From NCBI GenBank assembly GCA_022984795.1, contig JALIHJ010000008.1, forward strand, positions 248,001 to 312,000: a stretch of 64,000 nt of DNA, given 5' to 3'. The translations under genes were made by a program, and so were the position numbers. This document shows positions 10,070 through 57,586 of this stretch, in pieces. The notes beneath the pieces are model-generated. The model ran no database searches, was not told the DNA's origin, and saw nothing but the letters and a program-made list of their open reading frames with translations. The stretch is from Fabrea salina. Its lineage: Eukaryota > Ciliophora > Heterotrichea > Heterotrichida > Fabreidae. The stretch's first letter is position 1; every line of letters starts with the position of its first letter.

Positions 10070-13030
10070 TTAATCTTCTAAATAGAACTTGTTGAAGTTA
10101 ACTGAGTAAAATGCTCCTAAGTCTAAGTAAAACTTACAGTGGAAGTTGAATCCTGAGTTGGCTAGTTTAGTCAGAACTTTAAGCACTATTTTGTTAGCTG
10201 TTTGGAAAGAGTCCTTGATTCTATGAATAGTTGAGTCTAGTTGAAGTAGTTCACTTTTAGAGTCTTCAAAGTTATACACTCGTTTTTCTAAGTTCGAAAA
10301 GTGCACACAGCACTTGAACACTCCAGTAATGGCTTCGTTCAAAGAGTGGGCTTTAGGTCCTAGCAAGCATTTTTCAGTGGCTTTGTTGATGTAGAGTTGG
10401 TGGGCTTTTCTGATGTCTTCAACTGTTTGAGCTGTTTCTAGGGTTGCCTTGAACTTGTGACTTTGCGAAAACAAACTGTGTTGCATAATGTACTCTTCAA
10501 AACAACTCATAAAGTGAAGTAGTTCTTTTTGGAGCCCTATCATTTTGTTCAGCAAAAAAGGATGTGCTTTTCTGCGCCACTTAAAAGACGAAACGCAGTA
10601 AATAGCTCTTTTGATTTGAAGTAAGCGGTGAAATATCACTTGGTAAGACCTTATAGTAAGTGGGTCGAAAACTAAGTCTAGTGGTGCAGAGGGTTCGAAG
10701 TTTATCCTGATGTGCGACAAAGCCTCTATAGAGTTGGGGTCTTGAACTTCTGTGCCAAACTCAATTTTGAAGTTATCTGTGATGTCTTTGTCCCCTACAG
10801 CTTTAATGCTTTCTCCAAACATGCTGGTTACTTCGTAGTTGTTTTCTATTCTCTCTCCTTTTTCGAGTTTCTTCACCAAAAACTTCACAAACTGGTACAT
10901 AGCGTTTCCGTTTTCCAAAAACAAAATCCCTCTCAACGCTTCAAAGTGCTTGTCCAGGTTGAAGTAGTTCTTAAGCAAGTGCACTAAGTACTCAGAAGTT
11001 TCGTAGTGAAGTTGCACAACTGGCTCGCAAATAGCTTCGTCCACCACGCTTTGGAAACTTATCCAGTGGTTCTGCAAAGGCAGAGGTGGAGCTTGCTCTT
11101 GGTGGACTTCTACAAAGTAGTTAGGGAGTTCGCAGTCCACAGGAGAAAACAAGTGGAAAGGTGCGTTTGAGTCTATGAAGTGGAATTCTTTTGTGAACTG
11201 AGAAGGAGGCGCCATATAGTAGTAAGACTTAGGCTGCCAACCCACTGTGTTAACCTGAAGCAGAGTTGCAGGGGGTTCTTGGGAAAAGCAGTGAGCTGTG
11301 AGTTGTCTGAGTTTGGAACTAACTATGTGTTCGAAGTTCTGCATAAGAGCTGAAGGGGGTTGTATCATTTTGTCAAGTAGTTGTTCTTCAATCTGCTTTA
11401 TGACAGCCATTGTTTTGCCAGCGTTAAGTATCTTTCCAGAAACTTGAGTTAAAAAAACAGGTATGCAGTCAACTTTTGAAGACTTAAGCGACTCTTGAAC
11501 TACGTTGTAAGAACGTTCCCACTTTTCAAAGGTGCTGTTGTAAGTCTTTTTCTTTTCAGATATAAAAAAGTCTTTGCTGCTTAGTGAGCCAAAAGACATC
11601 CAAGAAGACAAGAACCCAATGTAGGCTTCTAGAGTCTTATCAAATAACCTTACAAGCAAAGAAGTGTTTTGGAAGTCAGTGAGTTCGTGGTTTTCGTTGA
11701 TTAAAGCAAATATGCAGGAAAGCAAGTAACTGGCTTTATAAGCTTCGTTGAATTCAGAACTTGTAACTAGTGCCTTGTTTATGATGCTTATTACAAGCTT
11801 TGAGGACTCTGTGTGTTTTTCTAGTCTGTTTCTGAGCGAAACCAGAGTTAGGGTTTCTTGAGGCAACTTACCAATGGACTCTTGGGTCACAACTCCAGCT
11901 TGTGCGCAGAACTCTTCTTTAACACTTATAAGTTCTCTTCTCACTTCTTTAATGTAGTCTTTGCAAGCTTCTCCAAAGTGCTTGTGAGTTATACAAGTGC
12001 TGTTAAATAGGAGCTTAGCGTTTTCTTCTATTTTAAACAAATTAGTTCCTAAGTCCATATAGAATTCCAGTGTGCGTTCTAAACAAGAAGGAGTCAAATG
12101 CATTACTTGGAGCTTTTTGGCTAACTTAAACTCTTTTTCGTACTTGAATACTTCAGTTTCCACGCCAAAAAGCATACTGATTACTTCGTCAATAATGGTT
12201 CTTTCAGAGTAAGTTTCATATGGCCAAGGCAGTTCCCCAGAAAAGTAACTGCACCTGTTTTCTTTCTCTAAAAGTGAGTTGTAGTAGTCATTTGCCAAAG
12301 CACAAGGGTCTACCCAGCTTCTCCTCCTTTCAATCACTAGTTTTTTAGGAGACTCTTCAGGTTCTATTAAATAGTTTGTAGGTAAAGGGGTATCTGGAAA
12401 CCCTCCATAGCATACTTTGGTCAAGGAAGAGTTGGAGGGTTCTTGGGAGTGCTCTTCTATTTGCATAGGCTCTTCTGAAAGGACTTGTGACTCTTCGAAA
12501 GGCTCTTCACTACTTGCAGACTCAGACTCCTCTCTGAATTCTCCCCAGCCGTCATAAAGTTCCCTAAGTTCTTTTTCAGAGAACTCCACTTCTACTAGGG
12601 GTTGTTGCTGCATGAACTCAGCTATGTGGTGGGATATGCTGTGCAAGTTGAATTCCTCAGACTCCAAAGGGTTCCCTGAAAGGGTGCATAGCAGCCAAAT
12701 AACTCCAAATTGCTCATCACTAGGAGTTTTACCTAAGAACTGAGAAACTAGGTTTTGAAGTTTCTGGGCTTTATCAATCTGACTGTTAACTCTGAGTTTT
12801 TTCGAGACCCTGACTAAAGCTCACCCTTCAATGTGCTTGCGGACCTTGTGGGAGTCAACGTCTTGGTAGCTGTGGTTGTACAAGTTGCCTAGTATGAATT
12901 CATTTGCAATATTAAAGTTGTTTGAGTTTTTCTAAGTGAGTTTTACAGGAACTCCGGTTTCGTGAATGATAAGTTTGCTAACTAACTTCTGGACTTGTCT
13001 TTCTTGTCTCTGTTTGAAATAAGAAGCCAT
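10070..13030 (-). CDS. GCP5: gamma-tubulin complex component 5 (GCP5)-like
   Basis: Three exons (13030-12947, 12931-12825, 12809-10070) give 976 aa. The N-terminus matches the GCP5 start: RQERQVQKLV, then an NFNIANEFILGN block, then VDSHKVRKHIEG, like human GCP5's NSHKIEKTIEG segment. The C-terminal third carries the Spc97/98 GRIP2 features: YQVIFHRLLQIKRAIY, a helix ending W-R-R-K-AHPF, and an H-x-x-YINKATEKCLL block. GCP5 sits inside the gamma-tubulin ring complex and helps template microtubules at basal bodies. The two first exons are only visible after removing two 15-nt introns. Confidence 0.88.
12810..12824 (-). other. 15-nt spliceosomal intron (GCP5 intron 2)
   Basis: On the minus strand GTGAGCTTTAGTCAG, phase 2, carrying an in-frame TGA. 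The only GTGA donor among the nine. Splicing restores the conserved GCP5 IEG-x-x-KK block across the junction. Confidence 0.92.
12932..12946 (-). other. 15-nt spliceosomal intron (GCP5 intron 1)
   Basis: On the minus strand GTAAAACTCACTTAG, phase 0, with an in-frame TAG at its end. A at position 10. Confidence 0.92.
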
Positions 13031-21758: not shown

Positions 21759-22340
21759 ATGCAAAGTTCCAAACTCTTAGAAAGGGAAAACAAACTCAAA
21801 ACTGCTTTGCAACAAGAAGAAACTAGAGAAAGAGTAAATGACTCTAAGTTCAGAGCTGTAGCCCAAAAGATGGACTATGAAGGCTTCCGGCAAATGGTTC
21901 TGGGAGCTAACCTCAAGCCTTCCAAAGCAGGCGAAATCTGGAACATGGCTGAAAAAACCAACACTGGGTTCCAAAACCCCCAAAGAAGCTTAGAAGTTAA
22001 CTTCACTCCTTCAAAAACAAGGAACTGGATTTCTGAGTGGCGGGCTTGCAAAACTGACTCTGAAAAGTTTAAGTGCTTGAAAGGTGTTGGCGACTACCTT
22101 AACAAAAGTTCTGACTTCGAAGTCTTTAGCGAGTGCTTAAGAGTTTTGCACGAAGGCAAAGTAAGCTGTAAGTTCGAAACAAACGACGAAGACATTCTGG
22201 AAATTCTAGAAATACTGTCAAATTACAAGGGCTTCAGCCAAGGCTTAAAGCTTTTAAGCCGTGGCGAAAAGACCAAAGTCAGGGAACTGCTCAATGCGCT
22301 GGAGTGTGAGGAGTACCTGGTTAAGTTTGGTTTAATCTAA
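21759..22340 (+). CDS. CCDC103: CCDC103-like dynein arm assembly/attachment factor
   Basis: 193 aa. The N-terminal helix and the block KFRAVAQKMDYEGFRQMVLG followed by ANLKP match human CCDC103 ([20 protein letters not shown] and then ASHLKP). A central FxxEWRxxK segment and the C-terminal GLKLLSRGEKTKVRELL block match the LSLLSRAERESCKGLF region. CCDC103 (DNAAF19) is needed for stable binding of axonemal dynein arms. ATG lies 7 bp from the divergent SNF5-PHD ATG. Confidence 0.88.
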   Translation: MQSSKLLERENKLKTALQQEETRERVNDSKFRAVAQKMDYEGFRQMVLGANLKPSKAGEIWNMAEKTNTGFQNPQRSLEVNFTPSKTRNWISEWRACKTDSEKFKCLKGVGDYLNKSSDFEVFSECLRVLHEGKVSCKFETNDEDILEILEILSNYKGFSQGLKLLSRGEKTKVRELLNALECEEYLVKFGLI

Positions 22341-25117: not shown

Positions 25118-25954
25118 ATGAATTTGGAAGAGTTCAGAGGAAAAGGAAAACTCACTTCGAAGTGGAAAGCTGCTGACATGCAAAAACACCGGCAGAACCT
25201 CAAAAGAGCTAGGAGCTTAATAGACAACAAACCCCCCAAACAGTACTCCCACATCAGAAACAACTGCAAGAAGTCTCGGATCCAAGAAGAAAGACACACT
25301 GAAATCGAAAGGGAAAACAGAATACTCCTAGAAAAAATCAGAGGCATCATGACTTCTAAGGCCACTAACAGCATTGTGTGCAATAGAAAAAGCCTTAACA
25401 AACAAGTAAGACTCAAACGACTCAAAGAAATATCTGAAGAAAACCAAAAAATGCTAAAACGTCTTAAGGAAAAAAAATCCGGGTTCAGGTTCGAACAACT
25501 AGAAAACGAACAACTCAGAATCGAAACCAGAAACTCCTCTTTCAGTCGAATTTCTAACAAAAGAGGAACTACCACTCCTGTAAAAAGCAGAGGCTTGATG
25601 AGTTCTTACTCCAAAAACACCACCAGCCGCATACCCAAAAGAACCACTCCACTCACCAGCGTTGCCGAGAAAACGCTGGTTTTTTCGGACTTTTTGAAAA
25701 TTGATAACTGTAACTACTTGGTTGAAATGAAAAAAAGCAAAAGGTTTTTGGAAATATTTGTGAAAGGCGAAAGCAAAGTTTTCAAACTGAACATTCCTAA
25801 TGGGTTCATGTACGGACTGATAGAAGAAGGAGACTACTACTCTTTAAGCAGGATGCTCACTATCAGGGGAAACGACTTAGTGATCCTTGACGAAGAAACC
25901 ACCAATATGATAGAAAGTCGCTTGCCCCCCCTTAAATCCACCACTCCTACTTAA
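25118..25954 (+). CDS. CFAP97: CFAP97/hemingway-domain ciliary protein
   Basis: 278 aa. Residues ~32-85 carry the CFAP97/KIAA1430 pattern: an RSLIDNKPP block, HIRNNCKKSRIQEER, then EIERENRILLEKI and an IM end. That helix is shared with hemingway and CFAP97D1, which act in motile cilia and sperm tails. The rest is basic, then a compact C-terminal region (residues 190-270) that may be a separate beta-rich domain. Confidence 0.72.
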   Translation: MNLEEFRGKGKLTSKWKAADMQKHRQNLKRARSLIDNKPPKQYSHIRNNCKKSRIQEERHTEIERENRILLEKIRGIMTSKATNSIVCNRKSLNKQVRLKRLKEISEENQKMLKRLKEKKSGFRFEQLENEQLRIETRNSSFSRISNKRGTTTPVKSRGLMSSYSKNTTSRIPKRTTPLTSVAEKTLVFSDFLKIDNCNYLVEMKKSKRFLEIFVKGESKVFKLNIPNGFMYGLIEEGDYYSLSRMLTIRGNDLVILDEETTNMIESRLPPLKSTTPT

Positions 25955-41700: not shown

Positions 41701-43485
41701 ATGGAAAAAGAGTTCTACCACAGACAAAACGAAGTCCCTCAAAAGTTGTGTCTAGTTTTAAGCGACCAAGTTAAAACTTGCAACGAACAGATTGAGTTGC
41801 TTAAAAAAAGAAAACAAAAACTTAAGTCTGAACAAAAAAACGAACTAGCTTTTGTCCAAGAAAACAACCGCGTCAAACTCGAAGAACTCAACATCAAACA
41901 GTCAGCCACTCTAAACCAAAAACTGCAAAAACTTCAGAAACTCCAACAAGAAAAGTCAGAGTACGACAAACTCAACCAAGAAGAACTCAGTCAGTACCAA
42001 CAAACCCTTGACCTGGACTACCAAAAGCGTGAAACTAACTTAAAAGCCTCTTTGAAAACTGAAATTTCTAAGTACTACAGTTTGCGTGAGTACATCCAGC
42101 AAAAAAAAGTCAAGTTTGAAACCTACATTGAACAAACGCTAAAAAAGCACCAAGAACAACTAGACCTTTTACAAAAAGACTTTAAGGAACAGCTAACTTC
42201 AGACCAAGAAACCTACCAAGCACTTCTAACACAAGCTAAAACTGAGTCCAAAGACTTCGAAACACAACTCAAAAGCCTAGAAAACCAAAGGGAACAAGAA
42301 GTGTGCTCAGTCCAAAACGAAATGCTTTCTGAAAAGCAAAAAGAACACCAAAAAAGCCTACAGAAGTGGGAAGACCTGCAGTCCCAAAAGAAAATAAAGC
42401 AAAAAACCAAAGCACTCAAACTTGCCGAAGAAACAAAGTACCAAGAACTAAAAGGCCGGAACAACTGGCTGATCAACCAAGTAGAGTCTTTAAGGGAAAA
42501 AATGAACAAAACTGAAGAACAACTCAGAGAAAGAGACGAAGTCATCAGCCGCAAAGAAGCCACTGTGCAAGAACTCAAGGCTTCCAACATCCACCTCATG
42601 AACTTCCACTTCGTGCTCAACCAAAAAATCCAGCACTTAAAAGGCCAAAGAAACCCCTTAGAAACTCAACTAGACGAAAAAGAAGAAGCCATCAAAAACA
42701 TCTACAACGAGTTAGTTCAAAAAGTCAACCAAAAAAACAAGTACCTCTCTAAAAACGACGAGTACCGAGAAAAAAACCTGTCTGTCCAGACCTACAACAA
42801 CCGCCTTAAAAGCCAAATCTTCGCAAGCAAAAAAAAACTCACCATGCTTAAAAGCGACTTAGCTGACTTAGTCAAAACCACCCAAAAAGACGAACTCATA
42901 TACAAGCTCAAAGAACTCTACGAAAAACACGCCGAACTCCAAGAAGTCGATACTGACTCTGCCCAAGAAACCCAAGACATCAAAGGCAACATTGAAGAAG
43001 CCAACCTCCAAAAAGCCCAGAAAGGAATGCTTAACTACCACGAGTCCATAAAAGGAAAACTAGAGTCTGCTTCCAAAAACACCCAAAACTTCCAAAAGGA
43101 AAAAAAACAAGCCATCGTGAAAAAACAACGCGAAAACGCTTTCCTAATTAAAGAGTGCAACAGTCTGCGCAACGAAAACAAAGAAATCGAAAAAACCCTT
43201 AAAAACCTCCAAAGAGAAATTAAAGACCTCACACTGCAACTCGAACTCAACCCCATCAGTTACTCCAAAGTCCAGAAAAGCAACTCACTCCCTAAAGTAA
43301 AACTCAACCCTTCCGAACAAAGGAAACTCCAAAACAACGCCCAGTTTTCCAGCATCATTTCTAAACTCGACAAAAACAGCAAACAGTTCGCTCAAGAAAC
43401 TCAAGAGTTCAAAAAACTCGGCAAAAAGTTCCAGTTTTACCTTAAAGGTTTTTCAAGTCCCAATAATACAGCTCCTAAACCTTAA
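41701..43485 (+). CDS. CFAP57 C-terminus-like coiled-coil protein
   Basis: 594 aa, coiled coil almost throughout. The segment HLMNFHFVLNQKIQHLKGQ, then RNPLETQLDEKEE, the following YNxRLKSQIFASKKKL block and the final RENAFLIKECNSLRNENKEI match in order the C-terminal coiled coil of CFAP57 (FKFVLDYKIKELKRQ and QENVSLIKEINELRRELK). CFAP57 is an axonemal protein for inner dynein arm g/d placement. The WD40 part of CFAP57 is absent here, so this is a coiled-coil-only relative. The stop lies in a TTAA shared with the converging TTLL9 gene. Confidence 0.75.
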   Translation: MEKEFYHRQNEVPQKLCLVLSDQVKTCNEQIELLKKRKQKLKSEQKNELAFVQENNRVKLEELNIKQSATLNQKLQKLQKLQQEKSEYDKLNQEELSQYQQTLDLDYQKRETNLKASLKTEISKYYSLREYIQQKKVKFETYIEQTLKKHQEQLDLLQKDFKEQLTSDQETYQALLTQAKTESKDFETQLKSLENQREQEVCSVQNEMLSEKQKEHQKSLQKWEDLQSQKKIKQKTKALKLAEETKYQELKGRNNWLINQVESLREKMNKTEEQLRERDEVISRKEATVQELKASNIHLMNFHFVLNQKIQHLKGQRNPLETQLDEKEEAIKNIYNELVQKVNQKNKYLSKNDEYREKNLSVQTYNNRLKSQIFASKKKLTMLKSDLADLVKTTQKDELIYKLKELYEKHAELQEVDTDSAQETQDIKGNIEEANLQKAQKGMLNYHESIKGKLESASKNTQNFQKEKKQAIVKKQRENAFLIKECNSLRNENKEIEKTLKNLQREIKDLTLQLELNPISYSKVQKSNSLPKVKLNPSEQRKLQNNAQFSSIISKLDKNSKQFAQETQEFKKLGKKFQFYLKGFSSPNNTAPKP

Positions 43486-44747
43486 GGTGCTTTAGGGTTC
43501 TCAAGTCTCTGGGATATTTGTTTAGCAAGCTTTTTCAGTTGAGTGAACCGGGGGTTGTGGCAGCCTAAGTAAGTAGAGTAAACTGAGTTCTGCGGAGTAC
43601 TCACAGGAGTTCCTCTACAAATTAAGTCAAAACCCCCCACTTGTTCTTCTTGTCCTGTAAGTAACTTCTCCATGTCCACTATGGTTAAAGCGTCGTCCAA
43701 AAGGTTCATTTTGAGTTCGTAGTCTTCTCGAGTGTTAGCTGTCATACTGGGAGAAGCGTTTACTTCGATTAACCAAGGTTTTAAGTTGTCGTCTATAAGT
43801 ATGTCGAATCCGTAAAGCTCGAAACTGTGCTTGTCGTTAATAATGCACTTCTGCACTGCCATCAAGGTTCTAATGAAGATCCGCGAAATCTTGTAAAAGC
43901 ACTGGGAAACCCTTTCTTGGCCGTACTTAGACATCAAGTACAACTTAAGGAGCCTTAAGTCCCACTTGCCTCCTGTGACTGAATCGTAGGTGTTACTGCT
44001 TTTCTGGATGGCTACGTTGGTTAAGTGCATGTAGTTATTTGCTATGTCTTCTGGGTTGCCTGAGTACCTTTGGTGGGTGAACCTTGCAAAGCCAGTTCTG
44101 TACAAGTAGCAAGTGAGCGGTGAATAGTTTGTCACTAACACATAAATCCTTAAGTCGAACTTCTTGCCTCCTACAAGCAAGGGGTTGTTTACGTACCTCT
44201 GGACTACATAGGGCTCGGCTTGGGGGTTGTCTGGTTTCCACCTGTAGTCGGACTTCCAAGTAGACACTTGATTGAGTTTGGTGAAAAGAAAGATTCCTTT
44301 GCCCTGGGACTTTCCTATAGGTTTCATGATCCACACTGAATTAGGGTACTTTTTGAACTCTTCCACAAACAAAGAGTACTCCCCAGGCATGTTGTAAGTT
44401 ATGGGGAAGAAATCCATTTCCTGGGCTTCTTCTAAACGGCCTTCTTTTTCAAGAGACTTTTTGTAACGCTTGAGGTTTTTGATCATAAGGTCTTTGCGCG
44501 TGAGTTCTCCGTAGTTCCGGAAGTGGTTGACTCTTTGGTTGGCACTGAGGTGGATGTGGTCCATTACTTCATGGATCCAGTCTTTTTCGGCCCAAATCAA
44601 ATCCCAGTCATCGCCTTCAGTTTCTCGCCAGCCTCTTCTTTTCATTGCTTCGTAAATGCAGTTCTTAAAAGTTGTTTTGAACTTGATCGAGCTGGGGTTT
44701 ACGGGGTATTGGTCTTTCTTTATGTATTTGCGTATCACGTCTGACAT
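43482..44747 (-). CDS. TTLL9: tubulin tyrosine ligase-like 9 (TTLL9)
   Basis: 421 aa ATP-grasp enzyme. Sequence blocks match TTLL9: WIHEVMDHIHLSANQRVNHF, ELTRKDLMIKNLKRYKK, FFPITYNMPGEY, WIMKPIGKSQGKGIFLF (nucleotide-binding Lys residues), FDLRIYVLVT, NYMHLTNVAIQK and PWLIEVNASPSM (metal-binding Glu, Asn). TTLL9-type enzymes polyglutamylate axonemal tubulin. Full length. The C-terminal 60 residues are unconserved. Confidence 0.94.
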   Translation of the reverse strand: MSDVIRKYIKKDQYPVNPSSIKFKTTFKNCIYEAMKRRGWRETEGDDWDLIWAEKDWIHEVMDHIHLSANQRVNHFRNYGELTRKDLMIKNLKRYKKSLEKEGRLEEAQEMDFFPITYNMPGEYSLFVEEFKKYPNSVWIMKPIGKSQGKGIFLFTKLNQVSTWKSDYRWKPDNPQAEPYVVQRYVNNPLLVGGKKFDLRIYVLVTNYSPLTCYLYRTGFARFTHQRYSGNPEDIANNYMHLTNVAIQKSSNTYDSVTGGKWDLRLLKLYLMSKYGQERVSQCFYKISRIFIRTLMAVQKCIINDKHSFELYGFDILIDDNLKPWLIEVNASPSMTANTREDYELKMNLLDDALTIVDMEKLLTGQEEQVGGFDLICRGTPVSTPQNSVYSTYLGCHNPRFTQLKKLAKQISQRLENPKAP

Positions 44748-47627: not shown

Positions 47628-50039
47628 TTAATTACTATCTAGTTTACTCAAACTCAGTCGGAACTCTTGGTCTTCAGAGTGTATTTTCTGTAGGTTCTTT
47701 GAGTTAAAGTCAGGACCTAAGTTATAGTAAAACCTGCTAAAAAGGTGCCCATTTACACCAGTGCTCACACTCCACTTACTAGCAAACCGGTTGCCTAAGT
47801 CCACTATGAACCTTGCTCCTACTCCGTATAAAGCTGAAAAGTCTTTGCCGTCCCATTTGTTGTGTCTTGAATGCACACAAACGTCCGAACCCCCTACAGG
47901 TTCCCACCTGTCAAAAACCTTGCCCAACACTGTTTTGGTCAAAGGAATGTGCATGTGGTGCATATGGTGCATGTCTCCCCACTTCCTTTTGCCTGCAAGA
48001 GCAATTGCTTCTTCAAGGGTTTTGGAAAGCAACTCTGAACAGGTTTCTTTACTTGGAGTTCTGAAGTCGTCGCACCATTCGTAGTCTAGACTTTCACTGA
48101 AAGTTTTAACTACAAAGGCTCTGTACCATATGCTCCTGAGTAAAGTTCTTAGCAGCCCTTCGTCATTTAGTCTGTCTTCAATCAAAGCTTTGGAAGTAGA
48201 CCAAAACCAGATTTGGAAAACTCCAGCAGAGTAAGAGTCTTTTTTCATGTAGTAGTTCCAGTTGCTTAGTTCCCTAAGCTCTTTTTGGAACCTTCCGGTT
48301 TGGTTCACCAAAGGAATCCACACTCTGAGGAGCTTCTCTGCGTAAAGGTTGTACTCGTCAAGCTGGATGTCTATCATGTCGTCTACAGTTAGCTTCTTTT
48401 TGGCAGAGTAGTTCTCAAGTAACTGAGAGATCCTTTCTGCCCTTGAGTCAGCAAACTCTCCTCCTAAAGACAAGAAGTGTTTGTAGTTAGGAGCTATAGG
48501 TAGGTTGTTAGCTGAAACTATGTAGCCTTTTCTGGGGTTTACTAGGTAAGGCATTTCTTCAAAAGGAACAAACTCAGTCCAGTAGTAGGAAGAATTCCAG
48601 GCCTCAAGTGGCGTCACGGAATAAATATTCTTTTTAAAGTGCGTTCCGACTGTTTGGTAACCAATGTCTCCGCTTTCTGTTGCATAAATAACGTTCATGT
48701 TTGGAATCTTAACTGACTCAAGTGCTTTTTTAAATTCTTTTGTTGACTTGGTTTTGTAGACCTCCATCAAAGCATCAAATGAAGTATCTTTAACTTCGTT
48801 GCCTACCCACCTAAGCGACACCTTTTGTTTAGTAGGAATTTCCAACAAAAGCGGAGTAGTTGTCATTGCTCCCTTAGGAGCGTTTTCAAGAACTGGGCCT
48901 ACTTTCGTGATAGTTATGTTGAACTTCCTTGGTTGGCTTTCGCCTTTGACTTTTACAAACTCTTCCACAAAGGAAGGAGTTTCCCACTTTCCGCCAAACA
49001 AGTACTTCCCTTCCTGGTTGAACTTGTGGATGTAAGTGTCAATAGTGTCCGAGTTCATAGCAGTGACTGTCCAGGTCATATGCGAAGTGCTTCCCAACAC
49101 TACCACTGGGACTCCTGGAATTCCTATCCCCGACACTTCCCACTCTGAGTTCTTCATTGAAACTGGGTAAAATATTGAAGGCAACTGAGATGGCAAGTGA
49201 GGGTCCCCTGCCACTATTGGCTTTCCTGATTCAGTGAACTTCCCAGAAACCACCCAGCCGTTGCTCATCTCAGCACTAAATGAAGAGTGAACTTCATTGA
49301 AGGTTTCAAAAGCCTCAGTAAGGACTTGTTCTGAGTTAACTGGAGGTTTTTTGTCCTGGGTTTCTTTTTGAGCTCTAAGTTCCATAGGCACTTCGTAATC
49401 ACTGATTGTGTAAGTAGGTTTAGGGGAATTCTTCAGATCATAAGGAAGAATAATGTCAGTAGCGTTTCCTATCAAGCGGTTCAGTTGGTGTCTCAATAGT
49501 TCTTGGCCCCAGTAAGGATTAAGCATTAGGGCTACTTGCCTAATAATAGCTATGGAGTCTTCAGGAGTCCAGTCTTCCCAGTGAGTCCAAGTTAAGGTGT
49601 ACTCAATGGGGAGCTGGCTAGACCTTGCAGCTGCATTGACTCCCTCCGCAAACCTTTTAAGGTTAATTTGGGTTTTTCCAGACAAGTGCCTGAATGTTTT
49701 TTGGCTTTCGCGGGACACACCAATGTTTTTAGCAAATAAGTCTAGTTGAAGGGTTTCCTCTCCAAAAATCTCTGAAAGGCGTCCGTTGGCAGCTCTGCGG
49801 AGCATTTCCATCTGCCAGAGTCTGTCTTGGGCCTGCGCGAAGCCAAGTGCGTAGTAGGTGTCTTCAATTCCTTCAGCTTCTACTCTAGGAATTCCTTGTT
49901 GGGTCCTTAGGATTTCGGCACCTGACCACACTCCACTTAGTTTGAGGGTTCCTTCGTAGTTGGGCAAGTTCAAGTAGAAGTAACTCACCAGAACTATCAC
50001 TGTGGGGACTACTAACTGGCAGCAGATTATGTATTTCAT
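47628..50039 (-). CDS. penicillin acylase (S45) family Ntn-hydrolase
   Basis: 803 aa. N-terminal signal anchor (residues 5-24). A-domain with YALGFAQAQDRLWQMEMLRR and GRLSEIFG, typical of the family. The nucleophile Ser begins the B-domain at MSNGWVVSG (about residue 258), so autocleavage before Ser is expected. Also GDPHLP, a SANNLP block and a His/Met-rich GDMHHMHHMHIPL. S45 enzymes cleave amide bonds of N-acylated compounds; substrates of eukaryotic members are unknown. Secretory or lysosomal location is inferred from the N-terminus. Confidence 0.9.
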   Translation of the reverse strand: MKYIICCQLVVPTVIVLVSYFYLNLPNYEGTLKLSGVWSGAEILRTQQGIPRVEAEGIEDTYYALGFAQAQDRLWQMEMLRRAANGRLSEIFGEETLQLDLFAKNIGVSRESQKTFRHLSGKTQINLKRFAEGVNAAARSSQLPIEYTLTWTHWEDWTPEDSIAIIRQVALMLNPYWGQELLRHQLNRLIGNATDIILPYDLKNSPKPTYTISDYEVPMELRAQKETQDKKPPVNSEQVLTEAFETFNEVHSSFSAEMSNGWVVSGKFTESGKPIVAGDPHLPSQLPSIFYPVSMKNSEWEVSGIGIPGVPVVVLGSTSHMTWTVTAMNSDTIDTYIHKFNQEGKYLFGGKWETPSFVEEFVKVKGESQPRKFNITITKVGPVLENAPKGAMTTTPLLLEIPTKQKVSLRWVGNEVKDTSFDALMEVYKTKSTKEFKKALESVKIPNMNVIYATESGDIGYQTVGTHFKKNIYSVTPLEAWNSSYYWTEFVPFEEMPYLVNPRKGYIVSANNLPIAPNYKHFLSLGGEFADSRAERISQLLENYSAKKKLTVDDMIDIQLDEYNLYAEKLLRVWIPLVNQTGRFQKELRELSNWNYYMKKDSYSAGVFQIWFWSTSKALIEDRLNDEGLLRTLLRSIWYRAFVVKTFSESLDYEWCDDFRTPSKETCSELLSKTLEEAIALAGKRKWGDMHHMHHMHIPLTKTVLGKVFDRWEPVGGSDVCVHSRHNKWDGKDFSALYGVGARFIVDLGNRFASKWSVSTGVNGHLFSRFYYNLGPDFNSKNLQKIHSEDQEFRLSLSKLDSN

Positions 50040-51268: not shown

Positions 51269-52528
51269 ATGGAAACCAAACAGGAAGCCAAAGATCTGGG
51301 TGGGTTCTTTGCTGTGTCGCCCAAGTATGACTGTCCACACATCTCTGGCCACTTAGTTGAAGACCCTCAGTTCTTCCAAGAAGTGTCCCTTAAAAACCCA
51401 TGCGGGGATTGCCAAAACATAGGCGAAAACTGGGTGTGTTTGAAGTGCAAAACTGTAAAGTGTTCACGTTACGTGAACGAGCACATGCTTTTCCACGCAG
51501 TCGAGTCAGGTCACGCCCTTGTACTTTCTTTCAGTGACTTGTCTTTTTGGTGCTACCACTGCGAATCCTACGTTTCGAGTCCAGAATTCACCCCAGTTCT
51601 TAAGCACTTCCAAACCTTAAAGTTCGGTTCTGAGGCTGACGAAATATCCAAACAGTTAAGTGGTTTAACTATTGAAGAAGAAGACACTGCTTTCAACCTT
51701 AAAACAGTTGAAGAACTTGCTACAAAACTTAAAAAAGGAGTGTTTACAAAAGTAGCTGTGATGGCAGGAGCAGGGATAAGTGTCAATTCTGGAATTCCAG
51801 ACTTCAGGTCTGAAAAAGGACTTTATGCTAAATTTGCCAAGGAAGACCTTCCACAACCTGAAGCTATTTTTGACATTTCTTTCTTCAAAAAGAAACCAGA
51901 GTTCTTTTTCCAGTTCGCAAAGGAGTTCTCCCCAGAAGGTTATGAACCTACACTAACTCACTACTTTTTGTCCTTCTTGGCTCAAAAAGATTTACTGCAC
52001 ATGTGCTACTCACAAAATATTGACGGCCTTGAAAAAAAAGCTGGAGTCCCCTCTGACAAACTAGTTCAAGCCCATGGCCACTTAGAAACTGCCCACTGTT
52101 CTGAGTGCGGAAAAGAATTTGACACTGCAGAAATGAAAACCTGCATCAGTTCTGGAGAAGTGGCTTGGTGTAGTTGTGGTTCCCCCGCTAAACCTGACAT
52201 TGTGTTTTTCGGGGAAGCTTTGCCACCTAGTTTCCACTCGGGAGTTGCTAAGTTAGACGAAGCAGACTTACTAGTGATTGTTGGAACAAGTTTAGTGGTT
52301 TACCCATTTGCAGCACTTGCTGACATGGTTCCTAAGAAGTGTCCTAGAGTTTACTTAAGCAAAGACCTGAGCAAAAGTGTGTCTTCTTCTTTTAAGTTCA
52401 AAAAAAAAGCAGACAAAAGAGACGTAGCTCTAATTGGAGACTGTGACGAAATACTAGGCCAAGTACTGGACATTTGCGAGTGGAGACAAGAATTTGAAGA
52501 GTTTGTTGCAAGCCATAAAAGTACTTAA
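51269..52528 (+). CDS. HDAC6-type ZnF-UBP fused to a SIRT2-like sirtuin
   Basis: 419 aa. Residues ~20-115: UBP zinc finger with PCGDCQNIGENWVCLKC, RYVNEHMLFH, SGHALVLS, DLSFWCYHCESYV and KFG, close to human HDAC6. The Arg, Trp and two Tyr that hold the ubiquitin C-terminal Gly-Gly are present (SRY, WCY, ESY). Residues ~145-400: class I sirtuin with GAGISVNSGIPDFRS, GLY, SQNIDGLE, catalytic HGH, KPDIVFFGE and VGTSL, plus a CxxC/CxC zinc site. NAD-dependent deacylation of a ubiquitin-marked or tubulin-related target is inferred. Confidence 0.92.
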   Translation: METKQEAKDLGGFFAVSPKYDCPHISGHLVEDPQFFQEVSLKNPCGDCQNIGENWVCLKCKTVKCSRYVNEHMLFHAVESGHALVLSFSDLSFWCYHCESYVSSPEFTPVLKHFQTLKFGSEADEISKQLSGLTIEEEDTAFNLKTVEELATKLKKGVFTKVAVMAGAGISVNSGIPDFRSEKGLYAKFAKEDLPQPEAIFDISFFKKKPEFFFQFAKEFSPEGYEPTLTHYFLSFLAQKDLLHMCYSQNIDGLEKKAGVPSDKLVQAHGHLETAHCSECGKEFDTAEMKTCISSGEVAWCSCGSPAKPDIVFFGEALPPSFHSGVAKLDEADLLVIVGTSLVVYPFAALADMVPKKCPRVYLSKDLSKSVSSSFKFKKKADKRDVALIGDCDEILGQVLDICEWRQEFEEFVASHKST

Positions 52529-52550: not shown

Positions 52551-53162
52551 ATGGAAGTAAAGTCAGCCGAAGAAGTAAACTCTGCAGAGTCCAACAACTG
52601 GGAACTCATTTCAAACGGAACAGTTAAATCCTGCAAACTCTCAGAGGATTCCCCACAAGACTTCTGGAGAGTGTCTGAACTTAGCTATAACTCAAACATT
52701 TCATCAGCAATTATGGATGGAATCCGTCAAGTAGTTAGACAAGAGGTACAAAAACTAGACCTTGCACCTAAACCAATGCCTTCAGCAAGGCACGAAGGAG
52801 TGATGTGTGACAAGTGCAAAGCAGAACCTATACTTGGAGTGAGGTACTACTGCTTCGAGTGCAGAGTTAATTTTTGCAGTAAGTGCGAAGAAGAAGATGA
52901 ACACCTGCACCTTCTTTACAAAATTAAAACCCCCAAAAAGCCTTCGTTCTTTGCGAGACTCAAGTCGATCTGCAGAAACAACAGGAAGAAAGTGATTTCT
53001 ACAGACCAAGTGCACACCCTTGAGCACTGTGGCAAAGACTTTTACGAAAAAGCCAAAGCTCTGCAGAAACTCGGGTTTGTAAATAAAGACCAAATCATCA
53101 AAGCACTCATCAACTCAAACAGTGACTTGAACACAGCCACAAAGATTTTGCAAAACGCTTAA
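52551..53162 (+). CDS. ZZ-finger + UBA protein, p62/NBR1-like
   Basis: 203 aa from ATG 52551. N-terminal acidic/Asn stretch containing NNWELI, a good Atg8-interacting (LIR/AIM) core W-x-x-I. Residues ~80-120 form a ZZ zinc finger (CDKCKAEPILGVRYYCFEC, NFCSKC, then a H-x-H end). The last 40 residues form a UBA-like domain (ALQKLGFVNKDQIIKALINS then DLNTATKIL). ZZ + LIR + UBA is the core of selective-autophagy receptors; the PB1 domain of p62/NBR1 is missing. It follows the ubiquitin-binding sirtuin by 22 bp on the same strand. Confidence 0.8.
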   Translation: MEVKSAEEVNSAESNNWELISNGTVKSCKLSEDSPQDFWRVSELSYNSNISSAIMDGIRQVVRQEVQKLDLAPKPMPSARHEGVMCDKCKAEPILGVRYYCFECRVNFCSKCEEEDEHLHLLYKIKTPKKPSFFARLKSICRNNRKKVISTDQVHTLEHCGKDFYEKAKALQKLGFVNKDQIIKALINSNSDLNTATKILQNA

Positions 53163-55421: not shown

Positions 55422-57539
55422 TTACTTTAGCTTTTTAGGGGAACCGTTTACAGGCCTAGGTGGGGAGCCCTGACTGATGCTTTCTACAGTTGAGTGGATA
55501 ATTCGGGAAGCCCTAACAGGAGTCATGCTAGGTGAGGGCGAACCTATGAATCTCGAAAGTGTCCTCATGCTCATAGGGTTACTTTCTCCCACAGCAACTT
55601 CTTGGCGTTCTAGTTCCAGAGGAGTGTACACCTCTATGAACTCGTCTATCCCAGTGTAGCCTCCCCCGACTCTTACCTTTATGCTTCCGTTCTCGAGTCC
55701 AATAAACACTCTTTTGGTCCCGAAGTAGTACTCCCCTTCTTGTGTCCTTTTGAACCCTACGTTTATAGGCTCTTCTCGGGTGTTGAGGTACTCCGAAAGG
55801 GCTACGTCAATAGGGTCGTCTTGAACGGGGTAGTAAGGAGCTGCTCTTTGCTTGATTTCAGACATGATTTGCTTGAGGTTCTCTATTTCGAAGTCCTTTT
55901 CGTTGATGCTGTTGATCATTAAGTTGAGTTTAGTTGACTCATCCAGCACAACTTGTGACTCGTTCATGACATAGTCAGTTCCGTTGTTAAGTGACTGCAT
56001 GATAAGGTCCCTTCCGGTACTATGAAGTCTGTGGAGTTTGGCTAAGTCATCAATTAGCTGTGCAAGGTCAGCTTTGATGCAGCAACTTTGTTCAAGAGTG
56101 ATTTGTTTGCTAGAGTTTTCGTAGATGTCTTTCCGGAGTTCAAGAATTTCTTGTTCTTTAGCTTCTATGCTTTTTTCGAGAGGCCCGATAGTTTCTGAAG
56201 CTTTTTTCTTTTCTGAAAGTAGTTCTTTAGTTTTTGCCTTGAACTCAGAGTTCTGGGTTTCCACTAGAGTTTCTAGTTCTTCTAGTTTGCTCCGAGTTTC
56301 TTTTCTTTTGGCTTCTTGGTCTTCAAAAGCTGACTTGGAGTTTTGGGCTAACTGGAAAAGGTTTTCTTGTTTAAGTTTGACTTTCAGTTGGTTGAGTTTT
56401 TCTTTGAGTTGTTGGTTTTCCTGGTCTATAGAGGCTTTTTGGGACTTAACAGATTCTAAGTCTTTGTCTGACTGAGCTTTGGCTGAAAGGAGTTCTTCTT
56501 TCTTTTTCAAAAACTTGTTTAGAGAGCACTCCATAGACTGCTTTGCTTCTTGGACTTCTTTCTCTAAGTGCTCTTTTCTGGAGGTGCTTTCCTTCACCAT
56601 TTGGTTTAGAGTCTCAGCTGCTTTAGAGGCGCTTTCGAAGTTGAGTTCTTGGGCCCTGAGGCTTATTTTTTCCTGGCTGGCTTTTGCTATTGAGGCCCTT
56701 AGTTCAGTTAGTTGGAACTGGAGTTCCCGTGCAAGGTTTTGTTCAGAAAGGAACTCAGAAGCTAGTTGCTGTCTTTGCAAAAGAAGTTCCTCTGCTTGGG
56801 AGTCTTCTTTTTGCCACAGACTCTTCAACCCCAAAGTAGTTTCCTCTGAACTTTGTTGGACTTGAAGACGCTCAGCTACTTGTTGGTTGATCTGTTCGTT
56901 GTACTTTTGGTGTTCTTCAGGCTTGTTGATGATCCCTTTCAAGTCAGTGCAAAGGTCCTTCAAAGCTTTTTTTAGTTGAGTTCCAGTCATTTTGGAAAGG
57001 TTTTCGAAGTCTATTTCGTCAATAGGAGGTAGGTTGTACTTAGTAGTGTCTACAGACCCTGGGTAGTCTCCTTCAATGTTGATTAAGATCCTTCCGTCTT
57101 CAGAACTGGTTTTAAAGTGCTCTTCTGAAGGCTTTTCCGAAGTAACTTCTCTTTCCAAGAAAGGACACCTAGCTTCTTCTTCGTTTTTCCTTTCGCGGAA
57201 CCCTACGTTGCTAGTTTCTATAGGTTGGATGCTGCTTCCAATCTTAATGCGGATGTCCCCTCCTTCACTTCTGAGACGAATCCACTTTTCAGCTGACCCA
57301 GGCACTGACCCCAAAAGCGCTTTGAGGGTGATTTTGGAAGTGCCTACATGACGCCCTGAAACTAGAAGCATAATGCTTAACTGCATCTCTGGACTGGCGT
57401 TGTTTACTTCTAAACGGAGTTCTTCTTTTGCGTCAAGTAGTTCTGACTCCTCACCTATCTCTACTCGGCAGTGCACCTGGTTTTTAGAGCCCTGGACCTC
57501 CTTTAGTTGGAGTTTTAGTTCGTATAACTTGTCTTCCAT
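55422..57539 (-). CDS. coiled-coil protein with C2-like head and GAR (GAS2)-like domain
   Basis: 705 aa from ATG 57539. Residues 1-110 look like a beta-sandwich C2-type domain (LRLEVNNA, IMLLVSGRHVGTSKITLKALLG). Residues ~205-545 are coiled coil. Near 605-650 a GAR-like domain: GEYYFGTKRVFIGLENGSIKVR, with VRVGGGYTGIDEFI matching the VRVGGGW-x-x-L-x-E(F/Y)L core of GAS2 domains, which bind microtubules. Disordered C-terminus with Ser-Pro sites. Likely a cortical microtubule protein. Its stop is 1 bp from the converging phosphodiesterase stop. Confidence 0.75.
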   Translation of the reverse strand: MEDKLYELKLQLKEVQGSKNQVHCRVEIGEESELLDAKEELRLEVNNASPEMQLSIMLLVSGRHVGTSKITLKALLGSVPGSAEKWIRLRSEGGDIRIKIGSSIQPIETSNVGFRERKNEEEARCPFLEREVTSEKPSEEHFKTSSEDGRILINIEGDYPGSVDTTKYNLPPIDEIDFENLSKMTGTQLKKALKDLCTDLKGIINKPEEHQKYNEQINQQVAERLQVQQSSEETTLGLKSLWQKEDSQAEELLLQRQQLASEFLSEQNLARELQFQLTELRASIAKASQEKISLRAQELNFESASKAAETLNQMVKESTSRKEHLEKEVQEAKQSMECSLNKFLKKKEELLSAKAQSDKDLESVKSQKASIDQENQQLKEKLNQLKVKLKQENLFQLAQNSKSAFEDQEAKRKETRSKLEELETLVETQNSEFKAKTKELLSEKKKASETIGPLEKSIEAKEQEILELRKDIYENSSKQITLEQSCCIKADLAQLIDDLAKLHRLHSTGRDLIMQSLNNGTDYVMNESQVVLDESTKLNLMINSINEKDFEIENLKQIMSEIKQRAAPYYPVQDDPIDVALSEYLNTREEPINVGFKRTQEGEYYFGTKRVFIGLENGSIKVRVGGGYTGIDEFIEVYTPLELERQEVAVGESNPMSMRTLSRFIGSPSPSMTPVRASRIIHSTVESISQGSPPRPVNGSPKKLK

Positions 57540-57586
57540 TTTAACGTTTTTATTATACAACTCCAACTATTTAAAGTACTAACTTA

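Follow-up and report, generated by a model that had tools for sequence, protein, structure and literature searches.

Structure of the locus

The window, that is the whole stretch of Fabrea salina DNA analysed here (64,000 nucleotides), carries on its forward strand an uninterrupted frame of 419 codons from ATG to TAA (Table 1). Within it, an N-terminal ZnF-UBP finger is followed, after a short linker, by a class I sirtuin; the first-pass annotation had read both from one frame, and the open frame, Pfam SIR2 and phmmer matches to SIRT2 and SIRT3 agree with it. By a naive estimate, 419 codons would stay open by chance at the local base composition with a probability of about 1e-11. Pfam placed zf-UBP at residues 45-106 (68.2 bits, cut-off 22.7, E 7.2e-19) and SIR2 at residues 167-346 (190.5 bits, cut-off 24, E 3.2e-56), both well over cut-off. 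Hist_deacetyl had no Pfam match in the 419-residue protein and none on its contig (C81) among the genome matches. The gene was scanned for GTA...TAG stretches of 13-23 nt, and none of this intron form was present; 15-nt stretches of the same form were recognised by eye as introns in three other genes (L019, L020, L031). A single-sequence structure model of the protein had a mean pLDDT of 34.7, too low to use.

Table 1. Features of the finger-sirtuin gene and of its two-finger paralogue.
Feature	Position	Strand	Basis or remark
Whole gene, ZnF-UBP + class I sirtuin, 419 aa + stop	51269..52528	+	open frame; Pfam zf-UBP, SIR2
HDAC6-type ZnF-UBP, aa 14-122 (Pfam core 45-106)	51308..51634	+	phmmer HDAC6 ZnF, E 4.3e-25
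Putative ubiquitin-tail pocket, R67, Y68, W94, Y96, Y101	51458..51574	+	column mapping to HDAC6
Linker, short, aa 123-144	51635..51700	+	without stop, without GTA...TAG stretch
Class I (SIRT2/SIRT3-type) sirtuin domain, aa 145-414	51701..52510	+	phmmer SIRT2, E 5.4e-63
Sirtuin zinc ribbon, knuckle 1 C-x-x-C, knuckle 2 C-x-C (C301, C303)	52094..52180	+	alignment with SIRT2, SIRT3, C22
Basic stretch KFKKKADKR	52394..52420	+	absent at that place in C22, SIRT2, SIRT3
C65 paralogue, 618 aa, two zf-UBP + one SIR2	L003 1126-2982 (G000:C65)		Pfam

Third-position GC fell from 0.55 in the first 122 codons (finger) to 0.34 in the rest of the gene. This step was the largest among the 16 window frames of at least 419 aa (next step 0.06). 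Since 110-codon windows of other genes ranged from 0.31 to 0.65, the step is a weak hint; it perhaps traces differing histories of the two domains.

The next gene (52551-53162, +) starts 22 bp downstream and encodes a ZZ finger (E 8.9e-7) and a UBA-like C-terminus below the Pfam cut-off. By eye, a WELI near its N-terminus could be an LC3-interacting motif. A p62-type autophagy receptor as partner of the finger-sirtuin was considered and rejected: the ZZ finger was nearest to MIB1 (8.9e-10; p62 only 0.002), the UBA-like end was sub-threshold, and PB1 was absent among the Pfam matches. The adjacency of the two genes was treated as incidental. On the reverse strand, 47628-50039 encodes a penicillin-amidase-family protein of 803 aa (Pfam E 1.8e-168). 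This family consists mainly of bacterial enzymes, and the gene is a candidate for horizontal transfer. Cilium and microtubule genes lie at 10070-12667, 21759-22340, 25118-25954, 43482-44747 and 55422-57566; the set holds a gamma-tubulin complex protein, a dynein attachment factor, CFAP97, a member of the tubulin-tyrosine-ligase family and a GAS2 domain.

Conservation of the finger

The first-pass annotation had recognised the wording of HDAC6 in the finger, and CGDC (residues 45-48), ENWVCL, RYVNEHML, SGHALVLS, DLSFWCYHC and KFG are indeed all present. With the first 130 residues as query against solved structures, the HDAC6 finger ranked first (E 4.3e-25), followed by USP49 (6.3e-14), USP33 and USP20. 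In the alignment with an HDAC6 chain from the PDB, 46 of 98 aligned residues were identical, and all 12 columns of Cys and His that we take to be the zinc ligands were kept. HDAC6 itself has two HDAC domains with the finger C-terminal to them. Here, by contrast, the finger sits N-terminal of the catalytic domain, which is SIR2 instead of a zinc-dependent HDAC domain.

By alignment columns, R67, Y68, W94, Y96 and Y101 correspond to HDAC6 R1155, Y1156, W1182, Y1184 and Y1189, all five of them residues of the tail pocket. For R1155, W1182, Y1184 and Y1189, contacts with the ubiquitin tail or with tail-mimicking compounds are described, G1154 hydrogen-bonds a tail-mimicking carboxylate, and an R1155A/Y1184A mutant of HDAC6 binds ISG15 more weakly (PMC10424181). 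The counterparts of R1155 and Y1184 are both kept in the window finger. Five of the six compared HDAC6 residues are retained. The sixth, G1154, is replaced by Ser (S66). The two C65 fingers have Ser in this column as well, so that it is shared by all three sirtuin fingers, while HDAC6 and five other fingers of the genome have Gly (6/6 non-sirtuin rows). The affinity for the tail may therefore differ in the sirtuin fingers, as judged from this column; G1154 is a pocket detail and not a family-defining feature.

The comparison comprised nine rows, HDAC6 and 8 of the 10 fingers of the genome (C20 and C11 were left out). In the window finger and in both C65 fingers, the five pocket residues and all 12 zinc-ligand columns match the HDAC6 ZnF-UBP (BUZ/PAZ finger), from which they share the Ser difference. 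In each of the C10 USP, C38, USP5-type and C25 fingers, at least one of these five residues is missing. A BRAP-type finger (C31) keeps all five and misses three zinc-ligand residues, so the five alone are not proof of function.

Conservation of the sirtuin domain

Against solved structures, the whole protein scored highest with SIRT2 (216.5 bits) and SIRT3 (207.9), then with yeast Hst2 and SIRT1 (best 60 of 114 matches). Of the earlier label 'SIRT2-like', the class I assignment and SIRT2 as best match stood, whereas a preference for SIRT2 holds narrowly given the score of SIRT3. The catalytic domain is 44% identical to SIRT2 and 42% to SIRT3, with the core motifs common to all: GAGIS (167-171), PDFRS (177-181), QNIDGL (249-254), the catalytic His in AHGH (268-271) and GTSL are intact. 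The PFA sub-motif (346-348) and the Ala before HG (AHG, 268-270) are present, the two features by which class Ib is recognised (PMC3191509).

All four Cys of the zinc ribbon are present. SIRT2 and SIRT3 have a C-x-x-C second knuckle and no finger, whereas the window gene has C-x-C and a fused finger. As the C-x-C form is also found in the paralogue C22 (L002), the shortening looks inherited and not like a sequencing slip. The basic stretch KFKKKADKR was noted by eye as a possible nuclear signal.

Paralogues, fingers and deacetylases in the genome

The genome searched comprised 18,328,466 bases in 103 contigs. Repeats of the type CCCTAACA were found at all eight contig ends examined (both ends of four contigs); in Blepharisma the telomere repeat is identical and introns are mostly 15-16 bp (PMC9942806). 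From its telomere repeat and very short introns the host is a ciliate, which we assign to the heterotrichs.

The window protein had 11 matches in the genome. The C65 paralogue (Table 1) contains a SIRT6-type sirtuin (SIRT6 E 4.9e-50, SIRT7 9e-48, SIRT3 5e-16). C22 is a fingerless class I sirtuin of 314 aa, with SIRT2 as best solved relative and an N-terminus that by eye resembles a mitochondrial presequence, and C32 is a SIRT6-type paralogue without finger. On C29, two adjoining near-alike sirtuins of another type (GAGLGVDSGLPDFRG; L007 and L008) appear to be a tandem duplicate.

Fingers and sirtuin domains of the two fused genes differ in their kinship. The window finger is 67% identical (72/108) to the second C65 finger, 48% to the first and 46% to that of HDAC6, and the sirtuin domains of the window gene and C65 are 25% identical. 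The sirtuin of the window gene is 52% identical to C22 and that of C65 59% to C32; each is 44% identical to its human counterpart. In a sirtuin tree of eight rows, from which the second C29 copy and the C60 sirtuin were left out, the group of C65, C32 and SIRT6 was supported by 97/96 and the pairing of C65 with C32 more weakly by 86/59; the window gene and C22 were placed beside SIRT2/3 without resolution. The only resolved group in a tree of the nine fingers was the pair of BRAP-type fingers; the sirtuin fingers were not separated, and their kinship therefore rests on the identities. The mismatch between finger and sirtuin identities is the evidence for one of two events: transfer of the finger from one sirtuin class to another, or replacement of the sirtuin part within an already fused gene. 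By these comparisons, the finger has the appearance of a module passed from one class of sirtuin to another. Of 81 finger codons compared, 27 were identical, 29 differed silently and 25 changed the residue, so the event was not recent.

The zf-UBP search of the genome, in which the best candidates were scored, gave at least 10 matches in at least 9 genes. According to Pfam, the hosts are five USP-type proteases (C10 twice, C38, C20, C11), two BRAP2-type proteins (C31, C25) and two sirtuins. The search for histone deacetylases gave six matches, and these share no contig with the 10 finger matches. One of the six, on C82 (L023), has by eye ankyrin-like repeats at its N-terminus in one frame with the deacetylase domain. 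Only the C46 deacetylase was classified against solved structures. It is a class II enzyme, and the label 'HDAC6-like' was weakened for it: by single-domain bits it is no closer to HDAC6 (225.1) than to the fungal Clr3 (227.5) and Hda1 (225.4), and full HDAC6 chains top its ranking because the scores of both their domains are summed. When five fingers were compared by tblastn with 9.9 kb around the C46 deacetylase, only chance-level pieces were obtained (best E 0.29); in 8.0 kb around C22 and around C32 the best E was 0.47 and 0.016, respectively. As positive control, the window finger found C65 with E 1e-50.

Neither the full-length protein nor the alignment of the fingers gave a confirmed relative in scans of viral and GTDB contigs. 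These scans seed on few exact peptide patterns and so miss diverged relatives; an old transfer may have escaped them.

Known counterparts

That the fusion might already be on record had been suspected in the first-pass annotation, and a published counterpart exists in Thd14 of Tetrahymena thermophila (Slade et al. 2011), in which an N-terminal HDAC6-like UBP finger precedes a class Ib sirtuin and the fusion was confirmed by cDNA (PMC3191509). After immunoprecipitation, Thd14 deacetylated histone peptides. It was located in mitochondria, nucleoli and the parental macronucleus, where it was concentrated before degradation of that nucleus; a microtubule location is not among the sites reported in the available portions of that paper (PMC3191509). 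Its authors described such a finger as uncommon among sirtuins and suggested ubiquitin binding (PMC3191509).

Thd14 and the window protein share domains and their order and are similar in size (471 and 419 aa). They differ in the conserved Cys/His of the finger (11 of 12 in Thd14 by its paper's count, 12 of 12 here). One of 11 Tetrahymena sirtuins carries a finger, whereas here three fingers are distributed over two genes and two sirtuin classes. Thd14 is partly mitochondrial, whereas here the presequence-like N-terminus noted by eye belongs to a separate fingerless paralogue, C22.

A later Tetrahymena review cites the Thd14 work for nicotinamide effects, in the portion available (PMC7339932). 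From a review of parasitic-protozoan sirtuins, the terms UBP, zinc finger, HDAC6 and ubiquitin are absent (PMC3484402). Among the literature matches listed, from a search with most subscription papers outside its scope, no other ZnF-UBP sirtuin and no SIRT6-type sirtuin with two fingers was recognised. Both architectures may well be on record in annotation databases. Dictyostelium Sir2A may also carry a UBP-type finger. A published Sir2A primer encodes MYAVNPI, which resembles the YAV.P start of the sirtuin fingers (PMC6475656, available excerpt), and Sir2A is a lead to a possible further carrier.

Proposed function and alternatives

One frame holds both domains; the zinc-ligand positions are conserved in it, as are the class Ib motifs and five of the six pocket residues compared. 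The gene probably encodes a ubiquitin-tail-guided deacetylase of the Thd14 kind, here in a heterotrich ciliate. The Ser in place of G1154 and the shortened second knuckle of the sirtuin count against this explanation. The finger would recognise a free Gly-Gly C-terminus, either that of unanchored ubiquitin or that of another protein ending in the same way, and an NAD-dependent lysine deacetylase would thereby be concentrated at sites of ubiquitin release. The protein would be nuclear or cytosolic, as its N-terminus is by eye unlike a mitochondrial presequence, whereas that of C22 resembles one. Binding, localisation and activity of the window protein are in this form predictions from its sequence. 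By analogy with Thd14, a nuclear role would be a better bet than a role on tubulin.

A narrower version of the ubiquitin-tail-guided deacetylase explanation would make the protein a Thd14-like enzyme of chromatin and nuclear death. The finger would recruit the sirtuin to nuclei that are rich in ubiquitin or dying, and its substrates there would be histones or further proteins of the nucleus. We consider this possible rather than probable. The nucleolar location of Thd14, its gathering in the parental macronucleus and its action on histone peptides point this way, although Thd14 is also mitochondrial and global H4 deacetylation in the dying macronucleus was unchanged by sirtuin inhibition (PMC3191509). 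KFKKKADKR, found in the window protein and missing from fingerless C22, is consistent with a nuclear protein, yet it is a short motif.

According to the first-pass annotation, the enzyme could be directed at tubulin or aggregates; it would then merge the cytosolic jobs of HDAC6 and SIRT2. No tie to either was found, and we regard this reading as doubtful. The substrate and its modification are probably at hand: among 12 genome matches of the tubulin family, a standard alpha-tubulin recognised by eye (L040) has Lys at position 40, and one match of the MEC-17/ATAT1 alpha-tubulin acetyltransferase family was found (C60, E 9.5e-55), so K40 acetylation is likely to exist. A finger-bearing HDAC6 was not found in the genome, with no contig common to deacetylase and finger matches, and the sirtuin might hence have become the place where the finger does its job. 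The sequence itself, however, gives no hint of tubulin as a target of the window sirtuin. The domain is almost equally near to SIRT2 and SIRT3, and no sequence feature linked to tubulin is known to us that would tell the two apart. The C46 class II deacetylase could act on tubulin itself, and the sites reported for Thd14 in the available portions of its paper are the mitochondrial and nuclear ones given above, with none on microtubules (PMC3191509).

Loss of ubiquitin binding, which would leave the finger as a structural domain or one for other peptides, appears quite unlikely. It would fit the Ser in place of G1154 in all three sirtuin fingers, but none of the three has lost any of the remaining five pocket residues, whereas four of the five other fingers of the genome (C10 USP, C38, USP5-type, C25) lack at least one of them. 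An assembly artefact or two neighbouring transcripts, to which the third-position GC step might be ascribed, is very improbable, as the frame is continuous, Thd14 is a precedent with cDNA (PMC3191509), a second finger-sirtuin frame exists on C65, and the step can also reflect separate histories of the two domains.

Beyond the ubiquitin-tail-guided deacetylase at this locus, we tentatively propose, somewhat short of even confidence, that the HDAC6-type finger serves as a transferable sensor of ubiquitin tails. Within one ciliate lineage it would have moved between two sirtuin classes and brought two NAD-dependent enzymes, one of class I (SIRT2/3-type) and a SIRT6-type one with two fingers, under the influence of free ubiquitin tails; no finger-bearing histone deacetylase was found in this genome. 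In this way NAD would link deacetylation to the turnover of ubiquitin.

Implications

Within the ciliates, heterotrichs branch far from Tetrahymena. The fusion architecture itself is already known from Thd14 (PMC3191509); added here are near-alike fingers, doubled, on a SIRT6-type sirtuin of the same genome, and the C65 two-finger gene is possibly more novel than the window gene. With its presence in what appears to be a heterotrich, the Thd14 architecture is no peculiarity of Tetrahymena, and so it may date far back in the ciliates or have evolved repeatedly. The finger-sirtuins offer a natural test of the HDAC6-type finger away from HDAC6, namely whether a deacetylase tied to it goes to free ubiquitin tails.
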